Below are positions 46 through 36,033 of a stretch of 36,037 nucleotides of DNA, in pieces. The position numbers were made by a program, and so were the translations under genes. The notes under the pieces were generated by a model, which was not told where the DNA came from, ran no database searches, and saw nothing but the letters and a program-made list of their open reading frames with translations. How positions within the stretch are numbered: the stretch's first letter is position 1; every line of letters starts with the position of its first letter. This DNA comes from a virus, in IMG/VR virus record IMGVR_UViG_3300031963_000469, positions 1 through 36,037 of that record, one strand, 5' to 3'.

Positions 46-265
46 TACCTTTCGTATATGAATATCGTGCAAACTCTTTATTACCAATTCGCACTGACTG
101 CGTAATGATGTTATGCCCGTCTTTCCTAAGATCATCAATCCGTGCTGCCAGCCGAAGCACACCATACAATCTCAGGGAATCCAAGGCCGTAATGCTTTGT
201 CCAGCCTGCAAGTGTTCAAGCACCATTTGGTTTTGAGACTTGCTGCCAGACTTGGCTGGCGTTAC
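38..265 (-). CDS. Helix-turn-helix domain in the -1 frame behind the annealing protein (frameshift extension)
   Basis: This frame encodes a helix-turn-helix domain resembling HTH_39 (PF14090), with the typical pattern G-Q-S-I-T, then LRLAARI, then DLRKDGH. The only ATG is at 226, which has no Shine-Dalgarno sequence and lies inside the domain: the preceding residues KSQNQ look like part of its first helix. No ATG, GTG or TTG occurs between the upstream in-frame TGA and position 226. The frame is -1 relative to the annealing gene and is entered exactly at an A AAA AAG heptamer. I infer that it is made as a C-terminal extension giving a protein of about 360 residues. Its TGA stop overlaps the ATG of the SSB-like gene (ATGA) across the circle junction. 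A separate 62-residue protein from ATG 226 is the alternative. Confidence 0.75.
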   Translation of the reverse strand, partial: VTPAKSGSKSQNQMVLEHLQAGQSITALDSLRLYGVLRLAARIDDLRKDGHNIITQSVRIGNKEFARYSYTKGKT

Positions 266-274
266 CCCTTTTTT
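245..274 (-). promoter_or_regulatory. Candidate -1 programmed ribosomal frameshift site
   Basis: On the minus strand the heptamer A AAA AAG occupies 274-268 in the zero frame of the annealing gene, followed by GGG and the TAA stop at 264-262. Seven bases downstream is a perfect 5-bp hairpin, GCCAG (260-256) with CTGGC (249-245) and a 6-base loop. A slippery heptamer, a spacer of 5-9 bases, a hairpin and a nearby zero-frame stop are the known parts of dnaX-type -1 frameshifting. An AAGGTG sequence lies upstream but is farther away than the usual stimulatory Shine-Dalgarno position. Confidence 0.7.
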
Positions 275-1119
275 ATTGCTTCATCCAATTGCTCTTTCAC
301 CTTCTTGACACCACGCACCCATACTTCGTGCAGTAGTTCGTTCTCAGCCTCAATCATGCCAAGCACAAAGTCATTAGCACCTTCCAAGGCTGTAATCTTT
401 GACAGCTTCTCAGCCGCATTCATCTTGGCATTGGCAGCAATACGCTCCACCATTTCAATGTAACCGTTGACAAACTCTTCATCATTGGCAAAACGCTCAT
501 GTTCTTTGAAGGTGTCACCAGAAGGCACAAGGAAGGCTACACCACCCTTCTTGACAGGCTTGGGAGGCTCTTGAACCTGTACTGGCTCGACCTTTTCAGT
601 CACCACCAGCGGCTCGACTCTCGCTTCCGGGATGGTTTCAACTTCAGTCTCGTCAAGCATTCCGAGTCCACAATGTGCAAGAACCGACCGCCGTATCGCT
701 TTCGTAGTTGCTTTAAGGATGGCATTAGCCAATCTTTCGCCGACAAGGTTCCCAACATCCACTGCGCCTTGATTTTCTGAAACTCTTCCGTCAGCGCCTG
801 TGCATCGGACGGAGACAAGGTAAATTCCATCCACACGTTCCCGATGCGTAATCTGAGTGGAAAGTTTATGTAAGGCGCACAACTGTTGCGTAGCGCTTGC
901 ATTTGCGTAGAGGATTTGTTTTCCATTTAAGGTAAGCAAGTCAAAGGGTTTAGCAGCAGGATCAAGACCGACTTGTTTGCAGCGGTACAGATAGTATTGC
1001 TTCTTCTGATCCTCATTCAAACCAGACAAGTCACCCCGCAACACAATGGATGATTGGATAGCAGGATCAAGGGTTGCGACTGCCGACGAATCGCCTGACA
1101 TATTGACTACGTTACTCAT
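262..1119 (-). CDS. Single-strand DNA annealing recombinase (RecT/ERF-like)
   Basis: The protein has 285 residues. Residues 36-160 resemble phage single-strand annealing proteins: a YLYRCKQVGLDP-like start, NGKQILYA near 65-72, a GR...GAV strand near 111-120, and the helix NAILKATTKAIRR (132-144) followed by a GLGMLDE segment (151-157). Such proteins coat and anneal single strands left by a partner exonuclease, and the YqaJ-type nuclease gene lies just upstream in the operon. The C-terminal third is a Pro/Lys linker and a charged helical region. The ATG at 1119 has a GAGGG Shine-Dalgarno site and overlaps the upstream gene by 8 bases. The 3' end carries the slippery heptamer described separately. 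The exact subfamily (RecT, ERF or another) cannot be fixed by eye. Confidence 0.8.
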   Translation of the reverse strand: MSNVVNMSGDSSAVATLDPAIQSSIVLRGDLSGLNEDQKKQYYLYRCKQVGLDPAAKPFDLLTLNGKQILYANASATQQLCALHKLSTQITHRERVDGIYLVSVRCTGADGRVSENQGAVDVGNLVGERLANAILKATTKAIRRSVLAHCGLGMLDETEVETIPEARVEPLVVTEKVEPVQVQEPPKPVKKGGVAFLVPSGDTFKEHERFANDEEFVNGYIEMVERIAANAKMNAAEKLSKITALEGANDFVLGMIEAENELLHEVWVRGVKKVKEQLDEAIKKG

Positions 1120-1319: not shown

Positions 1320-2213
1320 TCACTTCAATAGAAAGCGACGAGCGCCGGGTTGCTCCACCACAAACTTGTCATACATATCAGGCATGGCATTGCGGAACAG
1401 GTCTTTAGAAAAGGATTTAGTGGCTTTGCTGGCCTTCCAAGTGGCGAGTATCTTTCCGTCATAGGTTGCCAGTTGGGAGGACTCCATCATGTAGCCTTGA
1501 ATCTTGGCAGTCAGCGCGTCCTCTTGCGCTTCCAAGGCTTTCCTCTGCGTCTTGATAACTGACAGCATCTCGCAGGCTTGCTCAAGATCAGAGTTAGCAA
1601 CCAGACTGCTGCCGTTGTCTTGCTTGTACACAATCTTGGCAGCGTCACCCATTGTTTCAGGGTCAAAGTTCCTAGCCTTGATCCTGCCCCAAAACTGTGC
1701 CATTTCTCTGGCGTGCATATCCCATTGTTCAGCAGAGAAGGCAAGCGGATAATGGGTAATCTCTTGCCCACCAAAGCAGACCACTAAGATTACGTTGGGG
1801 ATACGATGAACGAGCGACTCATGCAAGCATTGAACGCGATAGCCTACGTCAATATCTGTGCTGCCATCGTCACCATACTTCTTACGTTGGTGGATGCCTA
1901 GGTTCTTGACCTCATAGAGTGTCTGCCCATCTTCGGATATGTAATCAAAGTGGGAAGCTAGGAAGCTGTGCTGTGGATGGTAGAGCGAGTAGTCTGCATC
2001 TTTGAAATTGATGCGTTTCCTTCTGGCAAACTCTTTCATAATGGGTTCTTGCATCACCAGACCCATTTGTACTGCTTCCACATCAGACAGATCGTCTAAT
2101 GGTTTAGCGCCGACCTTCTCGGCATAGACTTCGCCGCCTCGTCCTTCGACAAAACGACGAGCGTCATTCGACCACAGTGCGCTGTTACGCACTTCGGGTG
2201 AAAAGTCACTCAT
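1320..2213 (-). CDS. YqaJ/lambda-exonuclease-type recombination nuclease
   Basis: The protein has 297 residues. The first two thirds match the YqaJ viral recombinase/lambda exonuclease fold: a helix glutamate near E56 (GLVMQEP), then D90 in SHFDY, and E101-x-K103 in YEVKN, together the PD-(D/E)xK active site. Q112-Q129-type residues of YqaJ helices follow (GYRVQCLHE). It would digest one strand of linear DNA to expose single strands for the annealing protein encoded two genes downstream. The C-terminal third has a coiled segment (KTQRKALEAQEDALTAKI). The start at 2213 has the variant Shine-Dalgarno GAGGGGCTGAT. Confidence 0.88.
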   Translation of the reverse strand: MSDFSPEVRNSALWSNDARRFVEGRGGEVYAEKVGAKPLDDLSDVEAVQMGLVMQEPIMKEFARRKRINFKDADYSLYHPQHSFLASHFDYISEDGQTLYEVKNLGIHQRKKYGDDGSTDIDVGYRVQCLHESLVHRIPNVILVVCFGGQEITHYPLAFSAEQWDMHAREMAQFWGRIKARNFDPETMGDAAKIVYKQDNGSSLVANSDLEQACEMLSVIKTQRKALEAQEDALTAKIQGYMMESSQLATYDGKILATWKASKATKSFSKDLFRNAMPDMYDKFVVEQPGARRFLLK

Positions 2214-3684: not shown

Positions 3685-3713
3685 ACACTAATACACACAA
3701 TAAACACTGTCAA
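3685..3713 (-). promoter_or_regulatory. Candidate sigma70 promoter of the leftward recombination operon
   Basis: On the minus strand a perfect -35 TTGACA (3713-3708) is followed after 17 bases by TAGTGT (3690-3685), a weak -10. It lies between the origin inverted repeat and the first gene of the operon. Confidence 0.5.
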
Positions 3714-3719
3714 CAACTA

Positions 3720-3736
3720 TTTTGAGAGATAGATTT
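3720..3736. repeat. Origin inverted repeat, left arm
   Basis: The 17-base sequence TTTTGAGAGATAGATTT is repeated in exact reverse complement at 3965-3981. The two arms bracket the DnaA-box-like sites and the main iteron block. Confidence 0.85.
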
Positions 3737-3751
3737 GTGACAAGAAAATAC

Positions 3752-3783
3752 GGTGGATAACTCTGTGGATAGTCTGTGGATAA
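3752..3783 (-). promoter_or_regulatory. Cluster of three DnaA-box-like sites
   Basis: GGTGGATAA (3752-3760), TGTGGATAG (3764-3772) and TGTGGATAA (3775-3783) are spaced 11-12 bases apart in the same direction. The third is an exact DnaA box (TTATCCACA on the minus strand) and the others differ from it by one base. Confidence 0.75.
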
Positions 3784-3824
3784 CTGTAGTGTTATTTTGT
3801 AAAGCGGGAGAACACATATATACA

Positions 3825-3943
3825 TATAGCTATAGGGTTCATATAGCTTTAGTAAACGTATAGATATAGGGTTCTTATAGCTATAGGGTTCGTATAGATA
3901 TAGTTGTGCTATAGCTATAGGGGTGCTATAGCTATAGGATCAT
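3825..3943. repeat. Seven tandem 17-bp iterons
   Basis: Units begin at 3825, 3842, 3859, 3876, 3893, 3910 and 3927. The consensus is TATAGCTATAGGGTTCG; some units have A for C at position 6, and the 3842, 3893, 3910 and 3927 copies diverge at their 3' ends. The first part is itself palindromic (CTATAGCTATAG). The exact 17-base register over 119 bases argues for protein binding, not for simple AT richness. Confidence 0.9.
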
Positions 3944-3964
3944 CGGGGTAAACGTATATGAAAA

Positions 3965-3981
3965 AAATCTATCTCTCAAAA
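3965..3981. repeat. Origin inverted repeat, right arm
   Basis: AAATCTATCTCTCAAAA is the exact reverse complement of 3720-3736. It follows a run of seven A residues and closes the core origin region. Confidence 0.85.
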
Positions 3982-4002
3982 CATATAGGAAAAGGTATTT
4001 AC

Positions 4003-4053
4003 TAAGACTATACGGTTACTATAGCTATAGGGTTCGTATAGCTATAGGGAAAA
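4003..4053. repeat. Second iteron block (three 17-bp units)
   Basis: Units begin at 4003 (degenerate, 11 of 17 matches), 4020 and 4037, again exactly 17 bases apart. The 4020 copy matches the consensus TATAGCTATAGGGTTCG fully. The block lies outside the inverted repeat, like a separate incompatibility or handcuffing block in iteron plasmids. Confidence 0.8.
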
Positions 4054-4217
4054 GTTCGGACACACAATGCGAAACATGCGCGGATCATTTCCGATTTTTT
4101 TGGCAGATTCAAATGTCAAGAGAATAGACCGCCAAGACTTGCCAACCTGACTACAAACTGATTTTGCATACTGGATTTTTGAAAAGCGGATTGGCGGCAA
4201 GCGGCAAGAATCAATTC

Positions 4218-4245
4218 TGAGGGCATTTTGAGGGCTTCTGAGGGC
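4218..4245. repeat. Three helically phased TGAGGGC repeats
   Basis: TGAGGGC occurs at 4218, 4229 and 4239, about one helical turn apart, with similar flanks (CTGAGGGCTTC). The repeats lie on the right side of the origin region, before the terminator. Between 4054 and 4217 I see only short GGCAAG and TTGGCGG segments and no gene. Confidence 0.6.
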
Positions 4246-4280
4246 TTCAAAAGTTTAGGGAATAGTAGGATGAGGGTACA

Positions 4281-4306
4281 AAAGAAAAAGCCCCTAAAAG
4301 GGGCTT
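4281..4306 (-). terminator. Rho-independent terminator of the ArdC operon
   Basis: On the minus strand AAGCCCC (4306-4300) pairs with GGGGCTT (4294-4288) around a 5-base loop and runs into a T-rich tract (CTTTTTCTTTT). It lies about 20 bases after the stop of the last gene of the operon and shields the origin from readthrough. Confidence 0.85.
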
Positions 4307-5235: not shown

Positions 5236-6126
5236 TTAGGCCGCTAGTGCTTCGCTGATTTCACCGTGTTCATCAGCACTGGTAGCTGTCAGATAGTCCA
5301 TTGCTTGCTGTGCTTTTGCACTTGCTGAGAGAATGAATTTTTTATCATTCCGCAAGGCTTGTAACCAATTGCCAATATATCCGGCATGCCGCAAATCCCC
5401 GTCGATACCGCATTTTGCGCAAAGCATGGCAGCACCTAATTCTGCTACTAACTCCTCGAAAGCATAATTCTCGCTTCCGAATCGTGCAGGCGTTATACGT
5501 TTCAATCTGGAATCGTGGCCTGAAGCATGCACTGATTCGTGTAGCAGAGTAGCGTAATAGTTCTCTCTGGAATCAAATGCTGCCATCGGTGGCATCACAA
5601 TTGCATCGGTACTAGGTCTAAAGTAAGCGCTGTCACCGGCATGCGTTAATCCACCGGCTAGATTCAATCGGGAAACAATGTCATCAGCGGCAGAGCAAGC
5701 ATTCCAGTCAACGCTTGGCGGCTCTGGAATTGTTGGCAAGGTTAAACCTTCGCATTGTTCAATGTTGAAAACAAAATAATGTTTGATGAAAGCATACGCA
5801 CTGGTAATTGATTCACCCTTATCGCCGATTGTTTCTTTCCGATGCACATTCCAGTAAACAACGGGAATACCTTTTTGCTCAGCCTTCACACTGCCGCCAA
5901 GCATTTGCGCTTGTTTGAAGGTTACAAAGTACGGCATGGCAAAAGGCTGCATACCAAGCCAAAAGTGATTGATCCCGCGATAAACAGTGCCAGAAGCCGG
6001 ATTGAATGGCATGCCTTCGCCTGGTAAACCCTTCAATGTTCGCCAAGGCTTTACCCATGGTGTCGCCCCTTTTTCCAATTCGGAAATGATTCTGTCAGTG
6101 ATTAATTGTGCAATATCGGTTTTCAT
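5236..6126 (-). CDS. ardC: ArdC-like antirestriction protein (ssDNA-binding domain plus zinc metallopeptidase)
   Basis: The 296-residue protein starts like ArdC (DUF1738-type) proteins: a Leu-rich helix with IISELEKGATPWVKPW, then the NPASGTVYRGIN segment typical of the N-terminal single-strand-binding domain. The C-terminal half is a zincin-like peptidase with HESVHASGH (about residue 193 onward) and a downstream EELVAELGAAML helix holding the third ligand. Plasmid ArdC proteins protect incoming DNA from restriction enzymes. The start has the AAGGGGCTACAA Shine-Dalgarno and a TATAAT promoter upstream. The first gene of a five-gene leftward operon, it is probably expressed soon after DNA entry. 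A role in replication, through ssDNA binding, is an alternative. Confidence 0.88.
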   Translation of the reverse strand: MKTDIAQLITDRIISELEKGATPWVKPWRTLKGLPGEGMPFNPASGTVYRGINHFWLGMQPFAMPYFVTFKQAQMLGGSVKAEQKGIPVVYWNVHRKETIGDKGESITSAYAFIKHYFVFNIEQCEGLTLPTIPEPPSVDWNACSAADDIVSRLNLAGGLTHAGDSAYFRPSTDAIVMPPMAAFDSRENYYATLLHESVHASGHDSRLKRITPARFGSENYAFEELVAELGAAMLCAKCGIDGDLRHAGYIGNWLQALRNDKKFILSASAKAQQAMDYLTATSADEHGEISEALAA

Positions 6127-6173
6127 TTGTAGCCCCTTAGAGTGTTAGGAATAGTGCTAGTGCACTGGTACTA

Positions 6174-6201
6174 ATTATAGTGAGTGTGCATATTAACTCA
6201 A
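6174..6201 (-). promoter_or_regulatory. Sigma70 promoter of the leftward ArdC operon
   Basis: On the minus strand a perfect -10 TATAAT (6179-6174) lies 16 bases from TTGAGT (6201-6196), a 4/6 match to -35. It points at the ArdC gene. An inverted repeat AGTGC-TAGT-GCACT at 6152-6165 lies just downstream and could be an operator. Confidence 0.65.
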
Positions 6202-6560
6202 GGGGTATCTATATATATATAGGCATATATTTTTATATCGGTTTGTATGTAGGGATATATGTAATCTATTAGGGATTGTCGAATGGGTAATAACGCATAT
6301 ATTGTCAATTCTCGCGCCCCTGTAGATTTAACAATTGGTATAGGGACATTGTCACAGGGGCAATATTGTCTATTGCATAAGTGCAAAATGGTTAATCAAT
6401 GCCAAGTGGATAACATGGGCTGATGACAAAAGGGTAAGGTCATTATTTGCTTGGCAAGGTTATCAATTGGCTATGCTTGTCGCATTGGCAATGGGTTGTC
6501 AATCGGACATCGGGTTGTCGTTTTTATATGGTTATCGAATTGGACACGACCCCTTGGAGT
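6202..6560. other. AT-rich intergenic control region with repeated ATTGTC motifs
   Basis: I see no convincing gene here. The left part is a TATATA-rich tract. ATTGTC occurs at 6275, 6301, 6348 and 6365, with GTTGTC at 6495 and 6514. A 7-bp inverted repeat, CCCCTGT (6317-6323) and ACAGGGG (6354-6360), lies among them, and one near-match to a DnaA box is at 6405-6413. These features suggest protein binding sites but no specific regulator. Confidence 0.45.
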
Positions 6561-7032: not shown

Positions 7033-7042
7033 GGAGAGGGCT

Positions 7043-7297
7043 ATGAAGGAGATGGTGCCGGTGGAGAGTGTTCGGTTAAAGAAGGCGCACCCCGTGTTGG
7101 ATTATTTGAAAGAGAAGCGGTTGGTGAAGAATGATCGGGATTTAGCGCGGGTATTGGATGTGAACCCGCCGCTTTTGTCGAAGATTAGGAATGGGTATTT
7201 GAAGTTTGGTGCCGGAATGATCTTGGCAGTGCATGAGGAGTTTGACATCCCGATTAAAGAGATTAAGGCAATGCTGGCAGCGGTGGAGGAGAAGTGA
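7043..7297 (+). CDS. Small Cro/CI-like helix-turn-helix protein
   Basis: The 84-residue protein contains a helix-turn-helix of XRE/Cro type: DRDLARVLDVNPPLLSKIRNG around residues 31-51, followed by helices (MILAVHEEFDIPIKEIKAML). The ATG at 7043 is chosen over an upstream extension because AAGGAG lies just before it. It may repress the promoter at 6756-6791, whose palindromes are suitable targets. That target is inferred from proximity only. Confidence 0.7.
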   Translation: MKEMVPVESVRLKKAHPVLDYLKEKRLVKNDRDLARVLDVNPPLLSKIRNGYLKFGAGMILAVHEEFDIPIKEIKAMLAAVEEK

Positions 7298-7512: not shown

Positions 7513-7711
7513 GCCTGTTGACGTTAAGAAGTTGGGAAAGGAGTTGGCGAAGTTTGCGATGGATGGGGGTGATAGCTATTGCTGGCAGTGCATGACGTTG
7601 TGGAAGAAGGCGTCACCGGAGGAGCAGAACTACGCACTGTACAAAGAGGCATTAAAAATACTTTATAAGACAGAGATAGGACAACAATATGCCCGGTTCA
7701 AAGACGTTTGA
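7499..7711 (+). CDS. Hypothetical 70-residue protein
   Basis: The protein starts MSNPKPVDVKKLGKELAK and contains SYCWQCMTLWKKA with a C-x2-C pair, then a helical region. The ATG at 7499 lies inside the end of the preceding gene, and the 3' end overlaps the DUF5672 gene by 23 bases. No known domain is recognised. Coupling suggests expression with its neighbours. Confidence 0.6.
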   Translation: MSNPKPVDVKKLGKELAKFAMDGGDSYCWQCMTLWKKASPEEQNYALYKEALKILYKTEIGQQYARFKDV

Positions 7712-8489
7712 GAATGTGACCGTGGTTGCCATTTATGGCGACGGTCGTGGCGGCACAGCGATTCCCGCAATACGAAGAACAGTAGCAGCACTGCCCGGCT
7801 CCAAGCCTTTGCTGATAACCAACGTCGAGATTGATACGACGTACATGGTGCAGAAACTTATCCAAGCGCCACTGGACTACCAAGGCTATAGCGAGTTCGT
7901 CATGTATAGCCTGCATAACTACATTGATACGGAGTACGCCTTAATCGTGCAGCACGATGGATGGGCGTTGAACGCTGAGAACTGGCGGGATGAATGGTTA
8001 GAGTATGACTATGTGGGTGGGCCAACTCATGCGGCCTTACTGCCTAATGGCGAATACCGACTTCAATACGCATGGCATGGCATGGATAACCCCATCGTCG
8101 TGCAAAACGGTGGCTTTAGTTTGAGAAGCAAACGCTTCTTGGAAGCTCCCTCCAAGTACGGGATCATGCGCCGCCAAATGCCTGACCCCACCATGATGAA
8201 TGAAGACATCCAACTGACCTGTATCCAGCGTCGTTTCATGGAACGCTTGGGGATGAAGTTTGCGCCAGTAGAGTCTGCGAAGTATTTTTCGTTTGAACAC
8301 TTGGGGCCAATGCACGATGGCATGGATATGACCAAGGTGTTTGGACACCACAGCCGGTTTAGACAACTGCTATCCAACGGTGAGATGCTCTGGAAGCTCA
8401 CCAAAGAGCAAATGCGGGAAGTGTACGGAGAGCCACAAGTGTACGACTTGTTTGCCAAACACTACGGGTACACCATCCATGCAGTTTGA
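7689..8489 (+). CDS. DUF5672 protein (putative glycosyltransferase-like)
   Basis: The 266-residue protein has the DUF5672 signatures: a short Rossmann-like start (TVVAIYGDG), a LHNYIDTEYALIVQHDGW segment near residues 75-100, EYDYVGGP, and the GGFSLRSKRFL motif. Proteins of this family lie in sugar-modification clusters and are thought to be glycosyltransferase-like; QHDG sits where other enzymes have a metal-binding DxD. In this genome it directly precedes the terminase gene and overlaps it by 11 bases. It may glycosylate host surface polysaccharide, a virion protein or phage DNA; the sequence does not say which. Confidence 0.82.
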   Translation: MPGSKTFENVTVVAIYGDGRGGTAIPAIRRTVAALPGSKPLLITNVEIDTTYMVQKLIQAPLDYQGYSEFVMYSLHNYIDTEYALIVQHDGWALNAENWRDEWLEYDYVGGPTHAALLPNGEYRLQYAWHGMDNPIVVQNGGFSLRSKRFLEAPSKYGIMRRQMPDPTMMNEDIQLTCIQRRFMERLGMKFAPVESAKYFSFEHLGPMHDGMDMTKVFGHHSRFRQLLSNGEMLWKLTKEQMREVYGEPQVYDLFAKHYGYTIHAV

Positions 8490-10236
8490 TCGCAAGGGTT
8501 TCTACCGCTTCTGTAGCCAGCTACGGATTGAGTCCAAAGAACAAGGGATGATCACACTCGGTGATCAGCTACTTGGCACACAGACCTATGTGATGGACGA
8601 GGTAGCCAGAGGGCTGCAAGATGACATCCACTTCTTTGTGGTGTTGAAAGGACGGCAGCTTGGAATTACTACTATTTCTCTGGCGCTTGATCTTTACTGG
8701 CACTTCATCCACCCCGGTATGCAGGGAACGCTGACAACTGATACCGAAGAAAACCGGGAACAGTTCAGAAGTACGTTAGCCATGTACATGGATGGCCTCC
8801 CAAAGCAGTACAAGATTCCGCTGATGAGTCACAACCGCAATCAGTTGGTGCTGCAAAACCGAAGCCGCATGTTTTATCAGGTGGCAGGTACTCGCGCCAA
8901 AGGTGGATTGGGTCGAGGCAAGGGCATTACCTTCTTGCATGGCACGGAAACGTCTTCATGGGGCGACGAAGAAGGCTTAGCGTCGCTTTTGGCATCCTTG
9001 GCTGAAACCAACCCGCTGCGTTACTACATGTTTGAGAGTACGGCGCGAGGCTTCAACATGTTTCACGACATGTGGACAACTGCCAAACGAGCGAGAACAC
9101 AGAAGGCCATTTTCTGTGGCTGGTGGCGTAACCAACTCTATACCGCTGATCCCAAGTCGGATGTGTACAAGACCTATTGGGATGGCAAGCTGTCGCCTGA
9201 AGAGAAGGAGTGGACGAAGGACATCAGGAAGATGTACAACTTCGAGGTCAACTCTCGGCAGATTGCATGGTGGCGCTGGAAGCTGCATGAAGGTTTGAAG
9301 GACGATGGCCTCATGTATCAGGAATTCCCACCCACAGAGGACTACGCCTTTGTGATGACGGGAAGTAGCTTCTTCTCTACCGCCCGTTGTACCGATGCAA
9401 TGAAGGAAGCTAAGCGATCACCCTTCATTCCTTACCGCTTTAGCATGGGTGCTAACTTCCAAGACACGACGTTAATCCAAAGTACCGAGCGATTAGCGAC
9501 GTTAAAGATTTGGGAAGAGCCAGTCGCCAGCGCGTATTACGTCATTGGCGCTGATCCGGCGTATGGTTCGTCGGATTGGGCAGACCGATTTTGCATTCAG
9601 GTATACCGCTGCTATGCCGATGGCATGGATCAGGTGGCAGAATTTGCCACTTCTGAGCTAAACACCTTTCAGTTTGCGTGGGTGATCTGCTATTTGGCAG
9701 GCGCTTACGGCAATTCGCTGCTGAACTTGGAGGTCAACGGCCCCGGTCAGGCCGTGATTAACGAGATGCGGAACCTAAGAAGGCAGGCCATGTCACTGCC
9801 AGCCTCAGAAGCACGGCATTTGAATGACGTTTTAGGCAACATGCAGCACTATCTGTGGCGCAGGAACGATAGTTTTGGCATATCAAACAGCATTGGATGG
9901 GTGACAACCCACTCTTCCAAGGAACGAATGCTGAATTATCTGAAGGATTACTTCGAGCGCGGCATGATGAACATCTATTCTCAGGAATGTATTGATGAGA
10001 TGAAGGGCATTGTGCGGGATGGCGGCACAATTGCAGCCGCTGGCAGGTCAAAAGATGACCGTGTGATCGCGTCAGCACTGGCTGCTGCTGCATTTGCTGA
10101 GCAATTACAGCCTAGATTGATCGCAAATCGGGTAATGAGAGGCAAAAAAGAGGAAAAAACCGACGAAAATAGCCATAATGGGCAGGTACAAGTGCAAAAA
10201 CAGGTGTCAAACTACCTAAAAGCCTTGGGTTTTTGA
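8479..10236 (+). CDS. terL: Terminase large subunit
   Basis: The 585-residue protein has an N-terminal ATPase with a Walker A-like KGRQLGITT (residues 57-65), an acidic Walker B-like segment ending LHGTE (about 153-157) and a FESTARG coupling motif (185-191). A C-terminal RNase H-like nuclease has D359 in GADPAYG, E418 in NLEVNG and D526/D527 in SKDDRVIAS. It cuts concatemers and pumps DNA into the prohead. ATG 8479 is chosen because the frame upstream overlaps the DUF5672 gene. No cos site or long terminal repeat is visible, and the circular assembly fits headful packaging. Confidence 0.93.
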   Translation: MQFDRKGFYRFCSQLRIESKEQGMITLGDQLLGTQTYVMDEVARGLQDDIHFFVVLKGRQLGITTISLALDLYWHFIHPGMQGTLTTDTEENREQFRSTLAMYMDGLPKQYKIPLMSHNRNQLVLQNRSRMFYQVAGTRAKGGLGRGKGITFLHGTETSSWGDEEGLASLLASLAETNPLRYYMFESTARGFNMFHDMWTTAKRARTQKAIFCGWWRNQLYTADPKSDVYKTYWDGKLSPEEKEWTKDIRKMYNFEVNSRQIAWWRWKLHEGLKDDGLMYQEFPPTEDYAFVMTGSSFFSTARCTDAMKEAKRSPFIPYRFSMGANFQDTTLIQSTERLATLKIWEEPVASAYYVIGADPAYGSSDWADRFCIQVYRCYADGMDQVAEFATSELNTFQFAWVICYLAGAYGNSLLNLEVNGPGQAVINEMRNLRRQAMSLPASEARHLNDVLGNMQHYLWRRNDSFGISNSIGWVTTHSSKERMLNYLKDYFERGMMNIYSQECIDEMKGIVRDGGTIAAAGRSKDDRVIASALAAAAFAEQLQPRLIANRVMRGKKEEKTDENSHNGQVQVQKQVSNYLKALGF

Positions 10237-10625
10237 TGATTACGGTACTTCCAATCGCTGAAATCAAGAAAAGACTGCACAATATGCGCGAAAACAGGCG
10301 CAGAGGCTACTCAATGGCTGCTTTTGCCAAGTTAGCTGGAGTGGACTATCGGAACATGAAAAAGGCCTTTTTTGAGCAAAAAATGCCTGTTTCTGAGACT
10401 ACACAGCGCCGAATTAGCAAGGCTTTGCAGGCTTTGGAAGACGGACAGGCTGGAATGCGCATGGATATTGCCGGAAGAATGATCCTCGACTACCACCCAC
10501 CCAAGGAATTTGGCAAAACCTTGAAGCGTGGGTACACTTTGGAACTGACAAACGGTAAAATCGGCCTGTCTGTTAAACCAATTAACAAGTACGACTATAC
10601 AAAACCACCATTGTTAAAGAAGTGA
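10236..10625 (+). CDS. Putative DNA-binding protein (small terminase candidate)
   Basis: The 129-residue basic protein contains a helix-turn-helix-like region: SMAAFAKLAGVDYRNMKKAF (about residues 24-44), followed by a second helix with TQRRISKALQAL. The C-terminal half is beta-rich. The ATG overlaps the terminase stop (TGATG), so it is translated with it. DNA binding is supported by pattern only. The position suggests a small terminase or packaging regulator, but the usual small subunit precedes the large one. Confidence 0.55.
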   Translation: MITVLPIAEIKKRLHNMRENRRRGYSMAAFAKLAGVDYRNMKKAFFEQKMPVSETTQRRISKALQALEDGQAGMRMDIAGRMILDYHPPKEFGKTLKRGYTLELTNGKIGLSVKPINKYDYTKPPLLKK

Positions 10626-34423: not shown

Positions 34424-34451
34424 CCCCCGCCTAATCAGCGGGGGTTTTTTT
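34424..34451 (+). terminator. Rho-independent terminator of the rightward late operon
   Basis: CCCCCGC (34424-34430) and GCGGGGG (34438-34444) form a strong stem followed by seven T residues. It lies about 40 bases after the last rightward stop codon and abuts the end of the leftward glycosyltransferase gene. Confidence 0.93.
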
Positions 34452-35184
34452 AATCACTCGACAGCAAACCACCTTCAAACAGATACGTTCCCATGTGACC
34501 TAGGTGACACCAAGGTGCTGCATGTATCTTGCCGCCAATCTTGCGCCACTGGTGACAGAAATAGTAATCCTCTGACAATAGCCGTTTGCTCTCAGGATCA
34601 ATCGGATCAAGGTAGAACCCGTAAACTTCCTCGCCAGACAGATAGTTCATATCGCTGACAAAGGTAGGCGTATGAGGTTTCAACTCATCAAACACACGGC
34701 GCTTAATCAGCATAAAGCCAGTGCCAATAGCAGATACCTCACACGGCTGATCTACTGGCACCGTAATTGATGGATCGTTAGTAAGCAAATTGACAACAAA
34801 GCTGCCAGTATGTTTCTTAAGCTGATCAACTGGCTTACCTTCAGTCACAGCTTGATGCACTGTTTGCCAATTGATTTCCTTCTTTGGATAGATTCCACCT
34901 ATTACATCAACGTCTGCTGCCAGCATTTTTAGTGCGTCCTCTGGCTTGAATGCAATGTCGGCATCAATCCAGAAAAGGTAGTCAGCATCACTCTTTAGGA
35001 ACTCATGCGCCATATTGCAACGTGCGCGTGTCACCAGTGATTCGTTAAACATCAGTGACACAGAAGTTTTGTAACCTTGATTAGACAGAACGCCAATCAG
35101 GTTCATCAATGATTGTGTGTAAACGCCAGTGCATTGCCCACCATACATAGGCGTTGCTATAAAAATATGCTTTTGGTTTTCCAT
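34450..35184 (-). CDS. Glycosyltransferase-like protein (GT-A, WIDADI motif)
   Basis: The 244-residue protein starts KHIFIATPMYGGQC and has a GT-A-type core with FWIDADI (D74-x-D76, a metal-binding DxD), GGIYPKKEINW and a later EDYYFCHQWRKIGGKI acceptor-side motif. Such genes occur in aquatic phages and could decorate a host or virion surface. It is the last leftward gene before the terminator. The start ATG 35184 has CGGAGA upstream. The substrate is unknown. Confidence 0.82.
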   Translation of the reverse strand: MENQKHIFIATPMYGGQCTGVYTQSLMNLIGVLSNQGYKTSVSLMFNESLVTRARCNMAHEFLKSDADYLFWIDADIAFKPEDALKMLAADVDVIGGIYPKKEINWQTVHQAVTEGKPVDQLKKHTGSFVVNLLTNDPSITVPVDQPCEVSAIGTGFMLIKRRVFDELKPHTPTFVSDMNYLSGEEVYGFYLDPIDPESKRLLSEDYYFCHQWRKIGGKIHAAPWCHLGHMGTYLFEGGLLSSD

Positions 35185-35238: not shown

Positions 35239-35598
35239 CTAACTGTCCTCTGGCGAAGACTCATCCTGCGACTGATGGGGGTTTATTTCATTGCCAAGTA
35301 GCTTGAGCAAGTCGGGCAAGTGCATTAAGGCCAGTGATTTGCCACCGTCCTCACGCATTATCACAATGGATGTTTGACCAGCTTCACAGGCTCTGTCTGC
35401 CTGCTCAATGAAATCATACACCGCAATCTTGCGCCTGCGTTTGCACTCAATCAGATAGTTGCCAAGGATTAAGTCACCCTCATCCTTCACCTGATACTGC
35501 TTCAGGTTGCGCCGGATACGAATACCAAGCACATCAAATATCTCATTGGCAACCTCACGTTCGTAGGATGCTCCCCGATTCCTTGCCAGCTTACTCAT
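35239..35598 (-). CDS. PD-(D/E)xK Holliday-junction resolvase-like nuclease
   Basis: The 119-residue protein has a nuclease active-site pattern: E15 in YEREVA, then D42 in EGDLI and E51-x-K53 in IECKRR. This resembles archaeal Hjc-type resolvases and VRR-NUC-like enzymes. It would cut branched DNA, a fitting partner for the annealing protein and exonuclease encoded upstream. It starts coupled to the Cys-rich gene (ATGA). Confidence 0.78.
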   Translation of the reverse strand: MSKLARNRGASYEREVANEIFDVLGIRIRRNLKQYQVKDEGDLILGNYLIECKRRRKIAVYDFIEQADRACEAGQTSIVIMREDGGKSLALMHLPDLLKLLGNEINPHQSQDESSPEDS

Positions 35599-35744
35599 CA
35601 GTAACAGTTGGTATTGCAGTTGTTACCGTAACAGCAGGTTGTGCAGGTTACGCACCGACCTTGATTACAGTAAGTGTTGTAAGTGCAGCTTGCCCACACC
35701 AAAGGTGCAGTCACTACCAACCACAAAGCGAATAAGTAACGCAT
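35598..35744 (-). CDS. 48-residue Cys-rich secreted peptide
   Basis: The peptide starts with a signal-like stretch MRYLFALWLVVTAPLVWAS and then a mature part of about 29 residues with eight cysteines (20, 26, 31, 34, 37, 38, 43, 47) and little else but Thr, Asn and Tyr. Four disulfides could form in the periplasm. AAGGAG lies just before ATG 35744. Its stop overlaps the resolvase-like start codon. No family is recognised. A lipoprotein is less likely, since the lipobox is poor. Confidence 0.7.
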   Translation of the reverse strand: MRYLFALWLVVTAPLVWASCTYNTYCNQGRCVTCTTCCYGNNCNTNCY

Positions 35745-35757
35745 GATCGTCTCCTTA

Positions 35758-36033
35758 TCAAAATGGAATGTCGCCATCTTCACGGCGCTTACTAGGGAAT
35801 GGATTGGCATTGCCGCTAGTGTTCTCAGCAGGTTGCCAGTTGTCTTCTTTCAGGCTGATCAACGCACCACCCTTAGTTTCTTTCGTCCACGCAGCCAGTT
35901 TGATGGTATCGCCCGGAGCATAGTGTTGCTCCACCTTTAGCTCACCACGCCAATCAGGGCTACCAGCGCTCTTCTTGTTGCGGTTGCTCAGTAGTACACC
36001 AGTACCGGGTTTTCTATCTTGATAGTCACTCAT
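35758..36033 (-). CDS. Small SSB-like protein with an SSB C-terminal tip
   Basis: The 91-residue protein starts MSDYQDRKPGTGVLL and has a beta-rich core (GELKVEQHYAPGDTIKLAAW) and a flexible region. It ends in DGDIPF, close to the DDIPF tip by which bacterial SSB recruits partner proteins. This suggests an ssDNA-binding or SSB-mimic role. The ATG, in both junction copies, overlaps the TGA of the helix-turn-helix frame (ATGA), so it follows the annealing gene on the circle. Confidence 0.65.
   Translation of the reverse strand: MSDYQDRKPGTGVLLSNRNKKSAGSPDWRGELKVEQHYAPGDTIKLAAWTKETKGGALISLKEDNWQPAENTSGNANPFPSKRREDGDIPF

Follow-up and report, generated by a model that had tools for sequence, protein, structure and literature searches.

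The question raised by this locus is how a phage without a recognisable initiator begins to replicate its DNA, as well-studied tailed phages mostly carry their own initiator or a whole replisome. We analysed the complete virus record (IMGVR_UViG_3300031963_000469; 36,037 bp, referred to here as the window) of a freshwater phage of about 36 kb, which a 45-bp direct repeat at the ends of the record indicates is most likely a complete circular map. Scanning of the early and conserved proteins against Pfam, PHROGs and NCBIfam recognised no initiator, helicase, loader, primase or polymerase, and gave no match to a Rep initiator (Rep_3, RepA, TrfA or pi). The features described below make it probable, judged from sequence, that the region at approximately 3700-4055 is the replication origin of this phage and is fired by host DnaA, which would be notable because the phage has no recognisable initiator. 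As small unassigned genes remain, a divergent initiator is conceivable, and a highly divergent initiator or Rep may be encoded among them. The literature that was searched, with incomplete coverage, included no paper describing this phage family or its origin, and a host search of genome contigs matched only two metagenome-assembled contigs and gave no reliable host assignment. The nearest named record (L200, MW202753.1) is an uncultured circular phage from Manatee Spring, whose corresponding interval lacks a DnaA-box array.

The replication-related genes that were recognised in the window, together with an antirestriction gene to the right of the region, are the following:

262-1119, minus strand: single-strand annealing protein, placed in the Rad52 superfamily by its fold (model mean pLDDT 77)
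1320-2213, minus strand: RecE/YqaJ-type exonuclease (phrog_434, E 2.7e-38; PF09588)
5236-6126: ArdC-like antirestriction protein (ArdcN and MPTase-PolyVal)
35239-35598, minus strand: RusA-like/PDDEXK resolvase (phrog_244, E 7e-20)
35758-36033, minus strand: single-stranded DNA-binding protein (SSB), weak match (phrog_18154, E 1e-4)

The exonuclease, annealing protein, SSB-like protein, RusA-like resolvase and ArdC-like protein were present in all eight compared relatives. The model of the 262-1119 product had human RAD52 (E 4e-4) and yeast Mgm101 as its best PDB matches, and this Rad52-like fold argued against the protein as a candidate initiator. Elsewhere in the window, 7689-8489 encodes a DUF5672 protein, and 34450-35184 a protein with weak similarity to glycosyltransferases (phrog_1574).

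The original prediction placed three DnaA-box-like sites in the region. All three were present on the same strand, although only the third is perfect and the other two each carry one mismatch:

3752-3760, plus strand: DnaA box 1, GGTGGATAA, one mismatch relative to TGTGGATAA; perfect in nearly all relatives
3764-3772, plus strand: DnaA box 2, TGTGGATAG, one mismatch relative to TGTGGATAA
3775-3783, plus strand: DnaA box 3, TGTGGATAA, perfect

The start-to-start spacings of the boxes are 12 and 11 bp, and the window therefore contains tandem DnaA boxes with gaps of 3 bp or less, as looked for in a DnaA-dependent, oriC-like origin. In genomes resampled by a first-order Markov model with the genome's own dinucleotide frequencies (n = 300), no same-strand triple at such spacing was seen, compared with one in the window, and same-strand pairs had a mean of 0.003, compared with two in the window, placing this arrangement far beyond chance.

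Two arrays of 17-bp repeats follow the boxes:

3825-3943, plus strand: first iteron block, seven 17-bp units with the core TATAGCTATA or a near variant
4003-4053, plus strand: second iteron block, with units at 4003 (degenerate), 4020 and 4037 (both good)

The predicted seven tandem iterons in exact register were confirmed: the units start at 3825, 3842, 3859, 3876, 3893, 3910 and 3927, with a period of exactly 17 bp, and the best tandem-repeat score was 144 in the window versus at most 76 in 100 resampled genomes. The second block had been described as three units, of which two held up well and the first proved degenerate. The unit in close relatives consists of the palindromic core TATAGCTATA and a 7-bp spacer that varies by lineage (GGGTTCG in the window; CGGTTAC or CGTTTAC elsewhere) while the core is constant, and core-to-core distances are mostly 17, 34 and 51 bp. 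With increasing distance the regular 17-bp register fades, and TATAG-rich DNA and DnaA boxes stay. Matches to the exact iteron word in IMG/VR were limited to close relatives and to single, probably chance, occurrences in L003 and L004. Single-strand folding of the region was strong (z -7.3 and -5.0), but was not counted as evidence because palindromic repeats alone yield strong folding. The palindromic core points to a dimeric binder, like lambda O, rather than to plasmid Rep monomers, whose binding sites are not known to be palindromic.

We evaluated DNA stability with nearest-neighbour calculations in 100-bp windows for eight box-bearing genomes (the window and seven relatives), and observed an unstable element beside the boxes, again as looked for in an oriC-like origin that depends on DnaA:

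3814-3913, no strand: candidate unwinding element, being the region's least stable 100 bp and overlapping the iteron array

In all eight genomes the box-adjacent unstable site ranked among the three least stable: it came first in five (G001, G004, G006, G008 and G009), shared first place in G003, and took second place in G002 and third place in the window. This element is on the 3' side of TGTGGATAA, and so appears to differ from bacterial oriC, in that the unstable side at E. coli R1 is the opposite one. Another very unstable, AT-rich intergenic stretch is found at about 6172-6271, left of the rightward operon, and also in the compared relatives. Cumulative GC skew dips near 3 kb, but skew tracks gene direction, and coding-strand skew showed no useful difference between the two sides of the region. 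As an origin test GC skew was thus confounded and not decisive, and it gave no independent support for the origin.

Relatives were collected from IMG/VR with a terminase search (best 80 of 171) and an annealing-protein search (best 80 of 237), and the interval between the exonuclease and ArdC genes was compared. A same-strand DnaA-box pair, 11-12 bp apart, was present in 24 of 28 distinct intervals (L045 and L151 being the same contig), and was kept down to about 67-74% protein identity while the flanking DNA diverges. An alignment of 16 closer relatives placed the box pair among the best conserved blocks, and in three distant relatives (L061, L069 and L150) the boxes lie to the left of a TATAG-rich stretch, with one further DnaA box to its right. 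The prediction of a compact origin-like region combining DnaA boxes and iterons was therefore supported, as a module conserved among relatives whose position ranks among the least stable in each of the eight box-bearing genomes compared for stability.

The four intervals without the box pair came from three phages (L057, L082/L158 and L159), in which the same interval encodes a DnaN-like sliding clamp (PF02767, the DNA polymerase III beta-clamp central domain; E 2.5e-7) that was in none of the box-bearing loci. A TrmB-like winged-helix gene is also located in this interval in all three (L159, L057 and L158/L082). As the box-less phages form one clade in the exonuclease tree, the apparent loss of the boxes and gain of the clamp is a single replacement, which provides one data point and no repeated correlation.

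The region had also been described as bracketed by a perfect 17-bp inverted repeat:

3720-3736, plus strand: left arm, TTTTGAGAGATAGATTT; in close relatives only, several of which have it decayed, and decayed or absent elsewhere
3965-3981, minus strand: right arm, TTTTGAGAGATAGATTT on the minus strand

The repeat itself is present, perfect and beyond chance: it exceeds every other inverted repeat of the window at ranges up to 300 bp, 60 resampled genomes gave at most 15 bp, and none of 2000 local resamples reached 17. However, the description of it as a bracket did not survive the comparison with relatives. Many relatives that retain the boxes and array lack the left arm or have it in decayed form, and the second iteron block is outside the right arm, so that nothing beyond the boxes and the first block is enclosed by the arms. 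Conservation of the right-arm core extends over the close relatives, most of the middle ones and even L082 and L159, in which boxes and array are lacking. With the right arm persisting in this way while the left arm decays, the right arm is, by its distribution, conserved in its own right, and one lineage has a second, inverted copy of it. In L159 the counterpart of this right-arm element (TTGAGAGATAGAT; 3965-3981 of the window, minus strand) overlaps the winged-helix gene at its 3' end.

Three other elements flank the region:

3685-3713, minus strand: weak promoter-like site (TTGACA, 17 bp, TAGTGT) that faces leftward, upstream of the recombination operon running in that direction
4083-4130, no strand: conserved downstream block (ATTTCCGATTTTTTT ... 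AATGTCAA), 3' of the second iteron block, seen in the alignment of relatives
4288-4306, minus strand: terminator-like hairpin that would stop leftward transcripts short of the origin

The GTCAAC part of the promoter-like site was invariant in the 16 aligned relatives; its -10 element matches at just three of six positions, and the site was absent from the promoter-scan listing. The hairpin is considered weak because one was found where 0.8 were expected. The intergenic DNA to the right of the origin also contains three tandem copies of approximately TTCTGAGGGC (4214-4248).

Several genes were considered as the source of an iteron-binding protein. The product of orf70 (35598-35810) tracks with the boxes, but is small, Cys-rich and secreted-looking; the helix-turn-helix (HTH) gene at 7037-7297 was not found in distant relatives that keep the TATAG repeats; and the HTH_39 protein encoded at 38-226 has a counterpart in the box-less G005. 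A further small HTH protein is encoded at 10233-10625. No early gene tracked convincingly with the array by presence and absence, and we are less sure of what the iterons do than of the origin function of the region.

In the model that we favour, host DnaA would bind to the tandem same-strand boxes and help to melt the adjoining AT-rich array, as the low stability of this DNA suggests. As replisome genes were not recognised in the phage, we infer that host helicase and polymerase III would be loaded next. A dimeric DNA-binding protein, of phage or host, most likely binds the 17-bp palindromic units and would assist or regulate opening. The gene content further suggests that the exonuclease, Rad52-like annealing protein, SSB and resolvase would carry out recombination-dependent replication, yielding concatemers for packaging.

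The part of this model that concerns the repeats has a competitor that we consider possible but doubtful, in which DnaA alone opens the origin and the 17-bp repeats are the unwinding element itself, kept because TATAG steps melt easily and not as protein sites. The coincidence of the array with very unstable DNA would be expected on this reading, as would the loss of the 17-bp register in distant relatives that nevertheless keep TATAG-rich DNA and DnaA boxes, and the search for a cognate protein found none. However, the exact register and strictly palindromic core in close relatives exceed what melting would need, and the published DnaA-trios are adjacent trinucleotides and not 17-bp units (PMC8287927). 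Palindromic cores would also fit a dimeric phage regulator of the leftward operon, with the repeats as its operators and the DnaA boxes as a separate matter; the region is upstream of that operon, and the HTH gene at 7037-7297 is present in the window and closer relatives. This explanation is unlikely, since that gene was not found in G004 and G006, both of which have TATAG repeats and DnaA boxes, since ten sites across about 230 bp are more than the usual number of operators, and since the conserved boxes and low stability would be left unexplained.

Two further explanations were considered. The tight arrangement of the DnaA boxes might serve to titrate host DnaA, restraining host replication instead of starting that of the phage. 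There are only three boxes, however, and they lie beside very unstable DNA and a conserved repeat array; as titration would also leave the phage without a recognisable origin, we regard this as very improbable. Tandem repeats and inverted repeats are known at packaging (pac/cos) and partition sites as well, but the gene for the large terminase subunit lies some 4 kb away, ParA/ParB-type genes were not found among the scanned proteins, and DnaA boxes are typical of neither kind of site, making it extremely improbable that the region serves either purpose. An origin fired by host DnaA remains the preferred reading of the region.

If this large freshwater phage family relies on host DnaA, acting at a conserved origin dedicated to it, it would offer a simple model of viruses that borrow a cell-cycle initiator, and phage replication would be tied to host DnaA activity, with the box-bearing clades and the clamp-bearing clade providing a natural contrast. 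Tandem DnaA boxes beside unstable repeats might also serve as a signature for locating the origins of uncultured phages. Two scans of IMG/VR with the tandem DnaA-box pattern each gave at least 120 loci, and 117 of 148 examined loci did not pass when kinship with this phage was tested by protein similarity. As these loci are mostly on unrelated contigs, DnaA boxes in phages are not rare, and the original description of iterons with DnaA boxes as unusual for such a phage was not supported. In a blastn search of named phages for distant similarity, the box array matched only three small (4.7-5.6 kb) virus records. Among the scanned loci (L202-L279 and L320-L389) are L209 and L254, in which direct repeats of another sequence, like AAGATCTAAGACT, come after the boxes. 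By size and gene layout L231 and L276 appear microvirus-like, resembling small single-stranded DNA phages. We tentatively propose, as a reading that is possible but doubtful, that this tailed-phage family uses an oriC-like origin fired by host DnaA with no phage initiator, that one clade swapped this origin for a sliding clamp and another way of starting, and that host-DnaA origins may be widespread in environmental phages, including single-stranded ones.

The resemblance of the region to bacterial oriC lies in the basal unwinding system, in which tandem DnaA boxes with gaps of 3 bp or less are located beside unstable DNA (PMC8287927); in the phage, too, tandem boxes are separated by a 3-bp gap and flanked by unstable DNA, with a 17-bp palindromic array that oriC does not have. 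DnaA-trios directly beside the boxes on the proper strand were judged by eye, the motif being too degenerate to be decisive in AT-rich DNA. Iteron plasmid origins (RK2 oriV, P1 oriR, F and pSC101) likewise have DnaA boxes on one side, direct repeats of 17-22 bp and AT-rich unwinding DNA (PMC4980987), and the iterons of RK2 are 17 bp, the same length as the phage units. The phage region accordingly has both tandem direct repeats of the size seen in iteron plasmids and DnaA boxes beside them. It differs from these plasmids in its palindromic cores, its directly abutting units and the absence of a recognised cognate Rep gene among the scanned proteins, and no plasmid with similar DNA was found in PLSDB (72,556 plasmids; blastn, words of 11). 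The original assignment to the RepA or pi type was thus not borne out, given the palindromic core and the lack of both a recognised Rep-family gene and similar plasmid DNA. The origins of lambda and Stx phages contain several iterons, each an inverted repeat (dimer-bound in lambda), with adjoining AT-rich DNA (PMC7466680), and the phage described here shares with them palindromic iterons next to AT-rich DNA and a recombination module. Whereas the lambda origin lies within the O gene and uses the O and P proteins, a helicase loader accompanying the initiator, the region here is intergenic with DnaA boxes, and the scanned proteins gave no O/P homologue. A combination of DnaA boxes and iterons is already known, and here it occurs in a phage without a recognisable initiator; by analogy its iterons appear more like the O sites of lambda than the iterons of RepA or pi plasmids.
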